Source: Myxococcales bacterium SG8_38 (GTDB lineage Bacteria; Myxococcota_A; Polyangia; Polyangiales; Houyiibacteriaceae). Taken from it: DNA of 48,313 nt. The notes beneath the pieces were generated by a model. It did no database searches. It saw only the letters and a program-made list of their open reading frames with translations, and was not told where the DNA came from. The stretch covers positions 1-48,313 of the forward strand of contig LJTN01000020.1 in NCBI GenBank assembly GCA_001303415.1, written 5' to 3'. This document shows, piece by piece, positions 16,544-42,184 of this stretch. The position numbers and the translations under genes were made by a program. Each line of letters opens with the position of its first letter. The first letter of the stretch is position 1.

Positions 16544-17032
16544 ATGCGATTCGTGAAGGAGAGCGTGATCGAGGCAAGCGCAGAAACGGTGTTTGGCTTC
16601 CACGAATCACCAGATGCCTTCGAACGACTGCAACCCCCCTGGCAAGAAACACAAATCGTGCAGCCCCCCACCTCGCTCGAGGTGGGGACTCGCGTCATCC
16701 TGAAGGCCAAGCTCGGCCCGCTATGGCAAACCATCGTCGCCGAGCACGTGGCTTACGAGCCGGGAAGGATGTTCGCAGACCGAATGGTGAAGGGACCATT
16801 TCCCAAGTGGTTCCACAAGCACATCGTCACGCCCCAAGGCCCGGACAAGTGCATTCTAACCGATGACATCGAGTACGAGCTCCCTCTAGGAGCGCTCGGG
16901 CGCTTCTTCGGCGGATGGTTTGCGCGCGCCAGTCTCGAGCGCCTCTTCGAGTTCCGACACCGTGTGACACGCGAAGCCTGTGAGGCGCGCGGGAAGGGCG
17001 AATCAGGAGAGCGCCGAGCCTCAACGAACTAG
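16544..17032 (+). CDS. SRPBCC (START-like) domain protein
   Basis: A 162-residue protein of the polyketide cyclase/START-like superfamily. The characteristic opening is FVKESVIEASAETVFGFHESPDAFERLQPPW, followed by strands around FADRMVKGPFPKWFHKHIV and a long C-terminal helix (ASLERLFEFRHRVTREAC). It resembles the COG4276 branch, whose function is unknown and which is often next to epimerases. It follows ahpC by 27 bases, so it may be read through from the peroxide-response promoter. It overlaps the convergent ilvA gene by 12 bases. Confidence 0.72.
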   Translation: MRFVKESVIEASAETVFGFHESPDAFERLQPPWQETQIVQPPTSLEVGTRVILKAKLGPLWQTIVAEHVAYEPGRMFADRMVKGPFPKWFHKHIVTPQGPDKCILTDDIEYELPLGALGRFFGGWFARASLERLFEFRHRVTREACEARGKGESGERRASTN

Positions 17033-38172: not shown

Positions 38173-39923
38173 CAGGCTCCCGGCTCCTGGTGCATGGCCT
38201 TGAACTCCTGAAGGCCGGGGGCGAAGAGGTGCATGTTGCGGTCCACATCGACGTGAATGACGGACGGCTTGCCAGAGTCGACGCAGCGCTGAAGCGCGGC
38301 CTCGAGCTCGGACGGGTCGGAAACGCGCTCGCCGTGGCAGCCCATCGCTTCGGCCACCTTGTCGAATGCGATCTCCTCGAAATCGGCATTGATGGTGCCC
38401 TGCTGCTCGGTTCCGATGACCGGCCGCAGCATCCCGAGCCCTATCGTCTGTGTCAGCTTCACCATGCCCCACTGCCTATCGCAGAGCACGAGGTAGATTA
38501 CCGGAAGTTGGTGACGCAAAGCCGCCTCGAGCTCCTGCATGTGAAAGCCCATGGCGCCATCACCAATGATGCACACCACCTTCGCGTCCGGTTTCGCAAT
38601 TTGGCCCCCGAGGGCCTGTGCAACACCCGCACCCAACATTCCGAACTTGAAAGTCGACAGCAACGCGTCCGGACGATTGATCTCCGAAAAGAAGCTCGCC
38701 CAGACGGTCGCGTTCCCGCCGTCGAACACGTAGACCGCGTCGTCGCCAAAGAAACGCTTGCACGCGTTCGGCACATGGGCGCTGTGCATGGGGCTCGCCG
38801 TGTTTTGCAACGCCATGTCGAGCTGTGCGCGAACCTTCGCCTGGCCCTCGCTCAGGCTCGCCGTTCGTGCGCGATTGGCCTGCAGGCGGTCCTTGCTCAG
38901 TGGGGATTTCTCGAGCTCGCTTGCAAGCGCAGACAAGAATACGTTGGCATCCGCGAGGATGGCGAGATCGGTAGCCTTGTTGAGCCCGAGGATCTCGTCG
39001 TCGATGTCGACCTGGATCATCTTCTGCTCTCCGGGCTTGCCCCAGTACGGGGGCTTTCCCCACCAGTCGGTCTCTCCGAGGCGCGAGCCGATGACCAGCA
39101 CCAGGTCGGCTTCGCTGCGTGCCTTGTTGATCGGCTCCATCGCCCAAATCGGCAAGAGCTGCTCGTGGTTGTCGGGTAGGGCGCCACGGCCCGCCCAACT
39201 GGTGGTGACGGGCGCGCCCAGCGCCTCGGCCACCTTTCGCAGCGCTTCGGAGCCATGGGAGTGCAGCACCCCGCTACCTGCGTGGATGTGCGGCCGCTCC
39301 GCGCTTCGCAGCATTTGCGCTGTCTGCACAACCTCGGCTTGCGAAGGCGCGATGGGCGTCGTCCGCCGATAGGCTCGGGGGGGACGCAGGTCAATTCCGT
39401 CCGCCTCGAATACCCCGTTCATGATCGTTTCCGGAACGTCCAGATGCACCACGCCCGGACGTCCGCTCCAACTGATCCGCGCCGCGCGTCTGAATAGCTC
39501 GGGAAGCCGCTCGAAGGAGGGAACCGCGCCGCTCCACTTGGTCATGGGTCGTGTGACGCCGGCTTGATTGAAATACTGGTAGGTACCCCCACGGTCCGGA
39601 TACGCGATCGGCGTTCGCCGGCTCGAGGTGATCAAGAGGACACGATTCCCCTCTCCATTTTCCACGGCGACGCCAGGCAGGATGTTGGCCACGCCGGGTC
39701 CGTTCGATGCCATGCACACGCCGAGCTTTCCGGTGAGTCGGGCGTAGGCCCCCGCCATGTGCGCCGCGCTCGTTTCGTGCCTCGGGGAAACGAAGCGGAT
39801 GCCGTGCTTTTCGAAGCTTCCGAAAAAGCCCAAGTACGTGCCGTCGACGATTCCGAACACGACCTCGACGCCTTCCGCTGCGAGCATGCGAGCCAGCGCC
39901 TCTCCTCCAACCATCTGGGTCAT
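38172..39923 (-). CDS. Thiamine diphosphate-dependent enzyme (acetolactate synthase-like)
   Basis: A 583-residue enzyme with the three-domain layout of acetolactate synthase and relatives: an N-terminal pyrimidine-binding domain with catalytic Glu50 in SPRHETSAAHMAGAYAR, a central domain, and a C-terminal TPP domain opened by GDGAMGFHMQELEAAL. The magnesium/diphosphate motif, usually VLNNR after about 27 residues, reads VLCDR here, so the first Asn is Cys and the second Asp. The substrate is open: glyoxylate carboligase, sulfoacetaldehyde acetyltransferase and benzaldehyde-type lyases look similar. An AGGAAGG site precedes the ATG at 39923. Confidence 0.85.
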   Translation of the reverse strand: MTQMVGGEALARMLAAEGVEVVFGIVDGTYLGFFGSFEKHGIRFVSPRHETSAAHMAGAYARLTGKLGVCMASNGPGVANILPGVAVENGEGNRVLLITSSRRTPIAYPDRGGTYQYFNQAGVTRPMTKWSGAVPSFERLPELFRRAARISWSGRPGVVHLDVPETIMNGVFEADGIDLRPPRAYRRTTPIAPSQAEVVQTAQMLRSAERPHIHAGSGVLHSHGSEALRKVAEALGAPVTTSWAGRGALPDNHEQLLPIWAMEPINKARSEADLVLVIGSRLGETDWWGKPPYWGKPGEQKMIQVDIDDEILGLNKATDLAILADANVFLSALASELEKSPLSKDRLQANRARTASLSEGQAKVRAQLDMALQNTASPMHSAHVPNACKRFFGDDAVYVFDGGNATVWASFFSEINRPDALLSTFKFGMLGAGVAQALGGQIAKPDAKVVCIIGDGAMGFHMQELEAALRHQLPVIYLVLCDRQWGMVKLTQTIGLGMLRPVIGTEQQGTINADFEEIAFDKVAEAMGCHGERVSDPSELEAALQRCVDSGKPSVIHVDVDRNMHLFAPGLQEFKAMHQEPGA

Positions 39924-40074
39924 GGCGATCCTTCCTGCGTCCGCGTGATCGAGCACAAAGCAGCACGGGACGCGAGCGACGACTCTACACCGGTGCTTTT
40001 CGCGAACGAAAGCGAAACATTTGCGCCGGAAAAACCGCAAGGACGGGCTGGGAAAAACGCGACACGAGGTAGGG

Positions 40075-40221
40075 GTTCGCGTGGGGGCGGCGGGGTGGGG
40101 ATTGCGGGCTCACGCTTCGCGATTACCTCTCGGGCGTTGACGGTCTATGGATATGCGACCGAAGCGCAACCGCAGCGTCGGAACACGGACCCATCCTCCC
40201 CACCCCGCCTCCCACGCGAAC
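40075..40221. repeat. Long GC-rich inverted repeat with a nested second stem
   Basis: Arms at 40075-40101 and 40197-40221 are reverse complements: GTTCGCGTGGG (11 bases) pairs fully, then after a small bulge a 13-base GGCGGGGTGGGGA pairs fully. The 95-base loop contains a further pair, CGCTTCG (40113-40119) with CGAAGCG (40160-40166). The whole would form a long, stable cruciform or RNA hairpin. It lies between the four-helix-bundle gene and the TPP gene, both on the minus strand. Confidence 0.75.
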
Positions 40222-40239
40222 GCCTGCCTCGGGCGGCGC

Positions 40240-40274
40240 GCCAATCGGAGCTGGCAGCATGCATGCCGATTGGC
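40240..40274. repeat. 9-bp inverted repeat
   Basis: GCCAATCGG (40240-40248) and CCGATTGGC (40266-40274) are perfect reverse complements around a 17-base loop that itself contains the palindrome GCATGC. It is one of several structured pieces downstream of the four-helix-bundle gene. Confidence 0.6.
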
Positions 40275-40338
40275 ACTTCGCACGTCCGCTCCACCTCATG
40301 TCGCGTTTTTCCGAGCCCTCCATACGTCGCCGTCAACG

Positions 40339-40392
40339 CTGCAGCTGCCCCTGCCGCTGCCCTTGTCACCGACGCTGCCCCTGCTCCTGCCC
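40339..40392. repeat. CTGNNN hexamer array, downstream copy
   Basis: Nine consecutive six-base units, seven of which begin CTG (CTGCAG, CTGCCC, CTGCCG, CTGCCC, two degenerate units, CTGCCC, CTGCTC, CTGCCC). The same kind of array with the same orientation and register occurs on the other side of the four-helix-bundle gene. In the sense of that gene the units read as NNNCAG, mostly GGCAG. It is a direct repeat, not a CRISPR: units are 6 bases with no spacers. Confidence 0.75.
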
Positions 40393-40419
40393 ACTCGCGA
40401 GTCCGTCGCGACCCGTCCT

Positions 40420-40446
40420 CCGGCGATCGGGTGTCGTCATCGCCGG
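40420..40446 (-). terminator. Stem-loop just after the four-helix-bundle stop codon
   Basis: CCGGCGAT (40420-40427) and ATCGCCGG (40439-40446) form a perfect 8-bp stem with an 11-base loop, starting four bases beyond the stop codon of the minus-strand gene. There is no T-run after it, so it may protect the 3' end or need Rho, instead of being a classical terminator. Confidence 0.5.
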
Positions 40447-40449
40447 CTC

Positions 40450-40776
40450 CTAGCGACCCGAGAGTCGCCAGGACATGGCGCAGACTTCGTCGAGCGCGAT
40501 GTCCACGGTTCGAATGTGTGCGCCCGTCACGTACCCGTATGCCACCGCGGGCCGAAGCCCGGCTCGGACTTCTTTCGCGGACCCGCAGGCGCTCGCAAAC
40601 CGCGCCTTGGCGGTCCCAGCGTCATTGCCGTCGGCTTCGGCAATGTTCAGCACGACGCTGTTCATCGCCCGGTGAATCTGGTCGAAAAGCGCCTTGTCGC
40701 GCTTGCGCACGGCCGGCAGCGCCTGCCGAAGCCCGCCTGCCGCTTCGAGTGCCCGTTGCTGAATGATGAGTCCCAT
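40450..40776 (-). CDS. Four-helix-bundle protein (23S rRNA intervening-sequence protein family)
   Basis: A 108-residue soluble helical protein. The family pattern is clear: RALEAAGGLRQALPAV in helix 1, RAMNSVVLNIAEADG (the NIAE motif) in helix 2, FASACGSAKEVRAGLRPA in helix 3 and IDIALDEV-like segment TVDIALDEVCAMSWRL in helix 4. Relatives are encoded in 23S rRNA intervening sequences, and related folds occur as Avd in diversity-generating retroelements; they bind nucleic acid. Here there is no rRNA or reverse transcriptase. The start ATG at 40776 follows AAAGGAGATC, but that site lies in a strong inverted repeat. The open frame continues upstream through a Ser-Gly repeat coded by the hexamers, which I judge untranslated. 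Confidence 0.82.
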   Translation of the reverse strand: MGLIIQQRALEAAGGLRQALPAVRKRDKALFDQIHRAMNSVVLNIAEADGNDAGTAKARFASACGSAKEVRAGLRPAVAYGYVTGAHIRTVDIALDEVCAMSWRLSGR

Positions 40777-40778
40777 GA

Positions 40779-40857
40779 GTGATCTCCTTTGCGGGGGTGC
40801 GTGGGTTCCCCCGAAAGGGCGCCAGCCCGCCCCACGCACCCGCGCAAAGGAGATCAC
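40779..40857 (-). promoter_or_regulatory. Near-perfect 27-base inverted repeat burying the ribosome-binding site
   Basis: Arms 40779-40805 and 40831-40857 pair at 26 of 27 positions around a 25-base loop. On the minus strand the second arm contains the AAAGGAGATC ribosome-binding site and ends two bases before the ATG, while the first arm carries the matching GATCTCCTTT, which also resembles the 3' end of 16S rRNA. In the mRNA the site would be fully double-stranded, so translation should need unfolding, cleavage (for example by RNase III) or a binding protein. Confidence 0.8.
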
Positions 40858-40885
40858 GAGGACACGTCCCCACAAGAGACTGTCG

Positions 40886-40951
40886 CTGCAACTGCCACTG
40901 GGACTGCCACTGCCGCTGCCGCTGACGCTGAGACTGCCGCTGCCACTGACC
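40886..40951. repeat. CTGNNN hexamer array, upstream copy
   Basis: Eleven uninterrupted six-base units, all beginning CTG: CTGCAA, CTGCCA, CTGGGA, CTGCCA, CTGCCG twice, CTGACG, CTGAGA, CTGCCG, CTGCCA, CTGACC. It is in the same orientation as the array on the far side of the four-helix-bundle gene, so the pair acts as flanking direct repeats. On the gene's own strand it would code Ser-Gly repeats in an open frame, but no start or ribosome-binding site for it is visible. Confidence 0.8.
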
Positions 40952-41057
40952 CGGCTTCGAGGCCCGCGTGTACTGACGTCTACGCAGGAGGACGGGTCGG
41001 GATGGGCAGCACAGCGAGGGGGCGGGAGCCTAGTGGTGTGGTGACTTGAGGAGTCGG

Positions 41058-41076
41058 GCGAGCGGGTCCCGCTCGC
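41058..41076. repeat. 9-bp GC-rich hairpin before the dehydratase operon
   Basis: GCGAGCGGG-T-CCCGCTCGC is a perfect 9-bp inverted repeat around one base, 13 bases before the GTG start of the first dehydratase gene. With such a small loop it is more likely an operator-type palindrome or a transcription end from the other side than an RNA hairpin. Confidence 0.5.
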
Positions 41077-41089
41077 GAGCACTCCTCGC

Positions 41090-42184
41090 GTGTCAACGGT
41101 CGCCGGCCACGCTCCGTCCTTTCCCAGCCGCCGCGAGGTGATCGAGCACGTGCGCGCGCTCGGTCGGGAGGTCGTTGCTGTGATGCCCATTCACTATCCG
41201 CGGGCGATGTTGCGGGCGCATCGGCTCCATCCGATCGAGATTTGGGGTCCTCCTCGAGTCCCGCGAGTCGAGGGCAGCCGGCACTTTCAGGCCTATACGT
41301 GTGACATCGTGGTCAAAGCGACCTCGTTCGTGCGCTCGGGCGGCATCGCTGGCACCAAAGCAATCCTCGTTCCGCACACCTGTGATGCGCTGCAAGGCAT
41401 GGCCTCGGTGCTCGGTGATTTTCTCCATCCCGAGCAACGCGTCCTGACGCTCTATCTGCCAAGGGGCCGTCGCACCTCCGATCGTGACTTCTTGCGGGAG
41501 GAGCTGCAGCGTCTGGGCGCCAAGCTCTCCGAGGTCAGCGGGCATCAGCCCAGTCGGGCGGACTGGATGGAAGCGTTCGAGGCGGAAGACGCGGCCGACG
41601 CCGCCCTGGCCGACCTCTATCGGCGCCGCGAGCGGCTGGCGGTTTCCGACCGGCACTTCTATCAGGTCATCCGCGCGCGCGAGTATCTGACCGCCGAGCA
41701 ATTCTGCGAAGCGGCGACTGCGGTTCCCGAGGGAAACCGGCCGCGAACTGGCGTCGGTCTCATGATCTCGGGAATCGTGGCAGAGCCGCTCGAGCTCTTC
41801 GACCAGATCGAAGCCTTGGGGGCCCACATCGTCGGTGATGACTTGGCTTGCGGGTTTCGTCGGGTCTATTCGACCTCCATGCGCAACGACCCGTTCGAAC
41901 GGAGCGCCAGCAGATTGCTCAAGGGTCCGCCCGACCCGACTTGCGGCACACCGGTTCGCGACCGCATCGAGGCCCTTCAAACCCGAATGCGCGCGCTCGG
42001 CGCGCGAGGGCTGCTCGTCTACGATCCGAAGTTCTGCGAGCCCGAGCTGTTCGACGTCCCGCTCCTGCGCAAGCATCTACACGAAGCTGGCTTTCCCGTG
42101 CTGCACGTCGAGTTCGAGATGGGCGAGACACTCCCTCATCAGACCCTTTCCCGCATCGAAGCCTTCGTGGAGACCCTGTCATGA
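41090..42184 (+). CDS. 2-hydroxyacyl-CoA dehydratase family subunit (HgdB/BcrC-like)
   Basis: Iron-sulfur subunit of 364 residues of the 2-hydroxyacyl-CoA dehydratase / benzoyl-CoA reductase superfamily. After the N-terminal segment SRREVIEHVRALGREVVAVMP, cysteines appear at the places where this family binds a [4Fe-4S] cluster: YTCDIV (Cys71), PHTCDALQG (Cys98) and YDPKFCEPELFDVP near residue 330. The GTG at 41090 is the only sensible start. The stop overlaps the next gene (ATGA). The substrate is not evident: alpha-hydroxyacyl-CoA dehydration and aromatic ring reduction both fit this family. Confidence 0.85.
   Translation: MSTVAGHAPSFPSRREVIEHVRALGREVVAVMPIHYPRAMLRAHRLHPIEIWGPPRVPRVEGSRHFQAYTCDIVVKATSFVRSGGIAGTKAILVPHTCDALQGMASVLGDFLHPEQRVLTLYLPRGRRTSDRDFLREELQRLGAKLSEVSGHQPSRADWMEAFEAEDAADAALADLYRRRERLAVSDRHFYQVIRAREYLTAEQFCEAATAVPEGNRPRTGVGLMISGIVAEPLELFDQIEALGAHIVGDDLACGFRRVYSTSMRNDPFERSASRLLKGPPDPTCGTPVRDRIEALQTRMRALGARGLLVYDPKFCEPELFDVPLLRKHLHEAGFPVLHVEFEMGETLPHQTLSRIEAFVETLS

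Follow-up and report, generated by a model that had tools for sequence, protein, structure and literature searches.

A hairpin-led four-helix-bundle protein gene as a copy of a dispersed, possibly mobile unit in an uncultured Polyangiaceae-like genus

REP/RAYT and IS200/IS605-type elements are Y1 transposons that recognise hairpins, and MITEs are short, dispersed, intergenic sequences that differ in presence and absence. Proteins of the PF05635 (S23) family belong to another setting: according to the available part of one source, they are known from intervening sequences (IVSs) of 23S rRNA, and a Xanthomonas protein of the PF05635 type is a pentamer (PMC4990558). The accessible part of a second source describes a resemblance between PF05635 and Avd (PMC10053308). 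Stand-alone PF05635 genes carry the annotation 'four helix bundle protein', with no function given.

Here we present an analysis of a PF05635 gene in a stretch of 48,313 nucleotides (the window; contig LJTN01000020.1) from the genome of Myxococcales bacterium SG8_38 (G000; 3.62 Mb in 105 contigs). In this case PF05635 lies outside rRNA, mostly in genomes with no detected reverse transcriptase (RT), as the sole cargo of a dispersed, hairpin-led convergent unit.

The gene and hairpin in the window

The original prediction for this locus was a 23S-intervening-sequence-type protein gene preceded by a long hairpin that covers its ribosome-binding site, and the hairpin, the gene and the spacing between them are as it described (Table 1). 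The two arms, 27 nt each and 25 nt apart, are complementary at 26 of 27 positions (96%); AAAGGAGATC lies inside the proximal arm, which is separated from the ATG by two bases (TC). Folded as RNA, positions 40770-40862 reach -62.7 kcal/mol (z -7.6), with 0 of 200 shuffles as good, and the hairpin by itself has a z of -8.0.

Table 1 Features of the element copy in the window and of its immediate surroundings
Feature	Position	Strand	Basis or remark
Gene A (ATG at 40776, stop ending at 40450, product of 108 amino acids), four-helix-bundle protein of the 23S rRNA intervening-sequence-protein family	40450..40776	-	PF05635 / TIGR02436
Proximal (3') hairpin arm with AAAGGAGATC, ending 2 nt before the ATG	40779..40805	-	sequence, covariation
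Loop of the hairpin (25 nt); either strand has smaller inner pairing	40806..40830	-	
Distal (5') hairpin arm, 26/27 complementary to the proximal arm	40831..40857	-	
End motif GTCCTCG at the hairpin base	40857..40863	-	read by eye in alignments
(CAGYGN)n array on the 5' side of the element	40886..40955	-	
Degenerate (CAGYGN)n-type array on the 3' side, same direction	40339..40390	-	
8-bp stem-loop after the stop codon, no T-run, special to the window copy	40420..40446	-	
MITE-like repeat with 26-nt inverted ends; insertion context, outside the element	40040..40325	+	
'Tail' repeat; insertion context, outside the element	40955..41100	+	22 genome matches including itself

The assignment of the protein was likewise confirmed. 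Protein A scores above the curated cut-off of PF05635 (E 6.5e-11; 42.8 bits against 33.8) and above that of TIGR02436 (42.2 bits against 24). An AlphaFold2 model of the monomer (mean pLDDT 93.8) has four helices, at residues 2-26, 28-48, 53-79 and 85-105; as modelled, the protein is a four-helix bundle with a fold like that of the S23-family proteins 2GSC and 2RLD. Chains of these two entries make up the ten best Foldseek matches (TM 0.77-0.87; best E 1.1e-3, none at or below 0.001), and they are followed by Avd of diversity-generating retroelements (DGRs; 8UB7 and 4DWL, TM about 0.8, E 0.04 and 0.08). A PDB sequence search with protein A gave no match up to E 1, and neither defence (padloc) and phage (phrogs) families nor plasmid and phage records matched it.

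The locus is intergenic, with protein genes on both sides. An Rfam scan of 39600-41600 returned no family at the gathering score and no rRNA; its ten weak matches were mostly to microRNA families. A sigma-70 promoter scan found none, and two terminator-like matches stand without further support. The unit sits in a hexanucleotide array flanked by two other dispersed repeats. One of these, the MITE-like repeat, has inverted ends of the GGGCTCGGAAAAACGCGACACGAGG type and is also seen in G000 on contigs C44, C67, C96 and C100, among others; its 90 matches in the genome vary in length, and some are halves of one copy. The 'tail' repeat often adjoins it.

A convergent two-gene unit and its distribution

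The gene is one member of a multi-copy family found in an uncultured, Polyangiaceae-like genus of Myxococcota. A search gave matches in 75 of 144 genomes, among them 14 of the 18 congeneric genomes (own genome not counted; G007 matched weakly). A and B matches in a single genome number at most 16, the figure for G016; G001 has 15. All named relatives were assembled from metagenomes, with the labels Deltaproteobacteria, Myxococcales, Polyangiaceae or simply 'bacterium'. The gene had been called solitary, which is true of the window alone, where A stands without B; across the genus it belongs to a dispersed element that usually has two genes.

The usual unit consists of a (CAGYGN)n array, hairpin A, gene A, a convergent gene B, hairpin B and a further array. 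Complete convergent A/B pairs were found at 14 of the 20 relative loci fetched; three others have part of B, and N gaps follow A at the remaining three. A and B are paralogous PF05635 genes, B being 45-50% identical to the window A protein when aligned. In the 14 complete pairs the start codons lie 653-656 bp apart and the stop codons overlap by 4 bases, which leaves no room for a stem-loop after the stop. The stem-loop that the original prediction placed there does exist in the window (-13.4 kcal/mol with a z of -2.7, matched by 4 of 200 shuffles); it is not a feature of the family.

Each gene has its own hairpin just before the start codon: the 14 pairs all have the A stem and 12 of them the B stem, the two exceptions being L062, which meets a contig end, and L069, where the hairpin has been lost. 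At L069 (900-960) the B gene without a hairpin keeps part of the distal arm and has a different start region. The Shine–Dalgarno sequence (SD) lies in the gene-proximal arm in nearly all A leaders, and the distance from the end of the stem to the ATG is mostly 2-7 nt in both A and B leaders. At L031 the SD has changed from GGAG to GGAC with a matching change in the other arm, so that the stem is kept and the SD weakened. Read by eye, the alignments have GTCCTCG or GTCATCG at the base of the hairpin at both ends of the unit, with A and B agreeing in G000 and G006. GTCCTCG is found at the outer base of the B hairpins in these two genomes as well, GTCATCG is common in other genomes, and in G016 the B end is without either set of letters.

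Beyond both hairpins lie (CAGYGN)n arrays that run in the same direction, and then neighbours that differ from copy to copy. Other dispersed repeats aside, only the unit and its arrays are common to the copies.

G000 holds three A-type and three B-type matches, four of the six cut by contig ends. Near copies of window A lie on C29 and C34 (protein identity 94-95%), each with a hairpin, and the B-type matches are on C37, C65 and C39. C34, C37 and C39 end inside A/B genes and C65 begins inside one, as would be expected of a repeat that breaks assemblies. Since C37, C65 and C39 have 63 identical bases in common, they account for no fewer than two B genes. Within the limits set by contig ends, A and B are met in this genome only as single genes.

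Among 40 full-length A genes the median dN/dS is 0.12 (647 of 780 pairs, dS 0.05-1.5), and it is 0.10 within genomes. By this sequence measure gene A is under purifying selection, a result that concerns the A genes only. Inside one genome the A genes have a mean DNA identity of 85%, so their amplification is not very recent.

Two distant relatives of the same order, G125 and G135, have divergent gene pairs about 460-560 bp apart with two nested stems each. Hairpins of this kind thus reach beyond the genus, though not into every relative; some distant B-type leaders that were dropped, for example L039 and L042, have no obvious similar hairpin. The likely start codon of the distant copies L192-L196, L208 and L209 falls within the outer hairpin arm. 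In 10 of 10 copies from G125 and G135, one and the same inner-stem position carries a C·T mismatch, which reads G·A on the complementary strand.

Arrays of at least four (CAGYGN) units occur at seven places in G000: five beside A or B, one without a gene on C44 and one in an apparent gene on C74. C44, C13 and C49 carry the same repeat composite with an array and no gene. Arrays were also found in 8 of 9 other genomes tested, three of them without an A match (G003, G004 and G018); G009 had none. The proposal that the element makes the arrays is weakened by the arrays in these three A-less genomes and in the apparent coding gene on C74, and the element seems to sit in arrays more than it creates them. 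Because they also occur without the element, even in A-less genomes, the arrays may be a neutral landing ground or unrelated to it. The hexanucleotide repeat of the apparent coding gene on C74 spans 16694-16836. A further inverted repeat, of the TTAACCCTTTCAAAAAGGGGACAGTCCCC type, was seen by eye in or beside arrays and in intergenic gaps (L055, L172 in G013 and L269 in G011).

Orthologous sites differ in the presence or absence of the unit, through gain or loss. Between a lipoprotein-like and a CinA-like gene, G016 carries the whole unit with its arrays (about 1.16 kb). The same site in G018, whose CinA is 95% identical, measures about 15 bp and holds one repeat unit, and in G008 it measures about 75 bp and holds only an array. 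With these two included, the unit is absent from 11 of 11 other genomes that have both neighbours (15 of the 18 matching genomes were viewed, G001, G013 and G017 being left aside, and the left neighbour was not found in three). A second site is 134 bp long in G018 against 1013 bp in G016. There, G018 has a few repeat units and 17 nt, 15 of them like the A end, where G016 has the full unit (L281, 4500-4740). This apparent remnant of an A end makes it probable that the unit was lost from the second site, and loss from the first site of G018 is then possible too. The window site spans 1156 bp, and in G009, G012 and G004 the corresponding gap is about 119-313 bp long and holds neither A nor B; orthology rests here on gene order, as the left neighbour is only about 50% identical. 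The gene flanking a G013 copy has no close match elsewhere in the genus. Both ends of the unit run into (CAGYGN)n arrays, which would hide a target-site duplication, and no movement of the unit was seen in the genomes compared.

Paired changes and strand asymmetry in the stems

We collected 54 A and 43 B leaders. An identity of at least 70% (A) or 62% (B) was required, duplicates were removed together with short rows and rows containing N, and the counts used 41-48 A and 29-31 B leaders, with 44 distinct A stems and 29 distinct B stems. Four broken or misplaced leaders (L027, L102, L121 and L122) were kept out of the 44-leader covariation set, and the last three of these out of the 41-copy pairwise set. 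For B, RNAalifold gave a consensus fold of 15 pairs; stem lengths vary by row, and arms defined for each sequence were therefore used.

In the 44 A leaders, 95.5% of 1213 stem cells pair, compared with 41.5-54.1% in slid structures. Double changes are found at 13 of 30 pairs, a number reached by 12 of 500 shuffles, and the 122 compensated cells compare with a shuffled mean of 31; counted by further pair types there is no excess (25 against 24.8 in shuffles). The two arms of a copy pair at a mean of -48.7 kcal/mol, against -30.3 kcal/mol for arms taken from different copies, some A stems having been found short; a foreign arm pairs better than the copy's own in 149 of at most 2162 tests. Comparison of 41 A copies in pairs, which are not independent of one another, gave 4674 compensated differences, 3327 of them of the transversion type. 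One-sided differences in the same non-independent pairs number 1054 for the distal arm, about twice the 537 of the proximal arm. The B stem is of the same kind. The alignments indicate that the hairpin is not accidental: nearly every copy keeps a near-perfect stem while its letters change. The original prediction had staked the reality of the hairpin on its persistence and on compensating changes, and it holds up on both counts, the one loss among relatives being that of a B hairpin at L069.

The mismatches that remain in the stems are unevenly divided between the strands. Where one strand has an A·C mismatch, the other can form a G·U or G·T wobble. A·C accounts for 19 mismatches in the 44 A stems and 13 in the 29 B stems, and G·T for 2 in either set. 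Of the remaining types, C·T occurs 11 times in A and once in B, C·C 6 times and once, and A·G 2 and 9 times; further types are rarer. On the mRNA strand, G·U is found in 2 of the 1213 cells of the A leaders. Mismatches were polarised by the nearest relative, which was not possible for 6 in A and 12 in B. Polarised transitions in the distal arm comprise 12 (A) and 8 (B) distinct events leading to A·C and none leading to G·T; in the proximal arm the events are G·T 2 (A) and 2 (B) and A·C 1 and 1. Given the high T and G content of the distal arm, composition alone would yield about 70% A·C, and 20 of 20 would then arise by chance with a probability of about 0.0009 (P about 0.001), for events that share ancestry and are not fully independent. 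Hand-chosen distant hairpins (16 starts at 11 of 20 loci, picked for visible hairpins, 15 of the 16 yielding arms) have 8 A·C and no G·T mismatches. The more stable stem is the antisense one in 24 of the 41 A copies, the sense one in 4 and neither in 13; for the 29 B copies the numbers are 12, 2 and 15.

In a convergent pair, the antisense strand corresponds to the 3' end of the partner's read-through transcript or of the unit's DNA strand. The asymmetry is a pointer, not proof, that selection acts on the fold of the strand antisense to each gene. With wobble tolerated on the antisense strand, the working fold is more likely to be that of the opposite DNA strand, or of the 3' part of the partner's read-through transcript, than that of the gene's own leader. 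Mutation bias could be behind part of the asymmetry.

Explanations and relation to known systems

Taking these results together, we think that the feature probably represents a copy of a small dispersed element, selfish or of a mobile type, which chromosomal sites acquire and lose. Such an element would settle in, or travel with, hexanucleotide arrays, and its two hairpins, judged from sequence, would be its structured ends, bound by the A and B proteins. With the SD held in the stem, full-length transcripts would be poorly translated and expression would be kept low. Occlusion of translation can fairly be inferred from the position of the SD within the proximal arm in nearly all A leaders; hiding of the ribosome-binding site is probably a side effect of the conserved hairpin ends, with an mRNA switch as a possible added role. 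Were control of translation the main role instead, the hairpin would hide the SD, protein A (or B), RNase III or kinetic folding would control translation, and the copy number would be incidental. This is close to the RNA switch or self-control of the original prediction, and it can claim the place of the SD, the 2-7 nt that mostly separate stem and ATG in A and B leaders, the likely start codons inside the outer arm in some distant relatives of the same order, and the strong covariation. It is weakened by the mismatches, often A·C with hardly any G·U on the mRNA strand (2 of 1213 cells), a pattern that selection on a leader fold would not be expected to produce, by the 20 to 0 division of polarised distal-arm transitions and by L031, where a compensated change keeps the stem at the expense of the SD. 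We regard an mRNA leader switch or autoregulation as the principal explanation as unlikely, though a serious candidate.

The copies could also be an old multi-copy host family, not mobile, spread by segmental duplication and gene conversion, with the arms equalised by copying from arm to arm. Diverged copies under strong purifying selection would fit this, as would the share of compensated differences that are transversions (3327 of 4674), which wobble steps cannot reach, and the absence at one site that resembles loss. The neighbours of the copies differ, however, and the CinA site is empty in 11 of 11 other genomes with both neighbours; we consider such an origin very doubtful. A further candidate is an RNase III-cleaved intervening sequence of the 23S type, whole or fragmentary. 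The protein family is the same, and the hairpin is about the size of the Coxiella IVS stem (28 bp in the available part of PMC4990558), but the copy has no tie to an rRNA gene, the hairpins precede the genes and nothing in 39600-41600 reached an Rfam gathering score, which makes this explanation highly improbable. With a fold z of -7.6 and covariation across 44 leaders, a chance inverted repeat has a negligible probability.

The unit contains no recognisable transposase, integrase or RT; A and B take up the whole 653-656 bp between its two start codons. RVT_1 had no match in 17 of the 19 genus genomes, including the window's own and the element-rich G012 and G001, and one match each in G013 and G016, both of which bear the element, so that in these two an RT may play a part. 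A Y1 transposase (PF01797, E 0.001) is present in 13 of the 19 genomes, 12 of them over the cut-off and the window's own among them; at this threshold it had no match in the other six, which include G016 and G001. An RT or a Y1 transposase as the required mover was rejected, each having no match in some element-bearing genomes.

A more specific version of the mobile-element explanation, which we hold to be doubtful, is that the element has no recognisable transposase or polymerase, that its paralogous Avd-like proteins A and B handle the hairpin ends, that the distal arm is recopied from the proximal arm and that the element lands in hexanucleotide arrays. The distal arm would be rebuilt during propagation by copying of the proximal arm from a folded-back 3' end, of RNA or DNA. 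Rebuilding of this kind would explain the near-perfect Watson–Crick arms, the paired transversions and the excess drift of the distal arm, as well as the tolerance of wobble mainly on the strand whose 3' end bears the hairpin concerned. If the unit does move by itself, it would be a transposable element without a known catalytic enzyme. The unit offers PF05635 a testable role, the binding of its own hairpins, and provides dozens of natural covarying protein–hairpin pairs.

The protein fold and family were already known. The paired, hairpin-led intergenic unit has apparently not been described: no report of one was found in the open-licence literature, judged by titles and the starts of abstracts, which is no proof of absence. 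Among small hairpin-bearing elements, the unit is like REP/RAYT and IS200/IS605 in having structured palindromes beside, or at the ends of, a small coding unit. Unlike them, it has no Y1 transposase of its own, and its A and B stems tolerate wobble on opposite strands of the unit. With MITEs it has in common that it is short, dispersed, intergenic and variable in presence, but it encodes conserved proteins. The model of protein A has the same fold as Avd of DGRs (8UB7 and 4DWL); in contrast to a DGR, the unit is present in genomes without an RVT_1 match, a match that the window's genome lacks, as do 16 of the other 18 in the genus. Also close is the 23S rRNA IVS with an S23p/IVP gene, as in Coxiella and Leptospira, which is a small selfish element, as the unit would be, with a protein of the same family and which in Coxiella has a similarly long, near-perfect stem (about 28 bp in the part of PMC4990558 available). 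The unit differs from these IVSs in lying outside rRNA in many dispersed intergenic copies, in usually having two convergent genes with a leader hairpin each, and in carrying its hairpin arms upstream of the open reading frame, where they do not enclose it.
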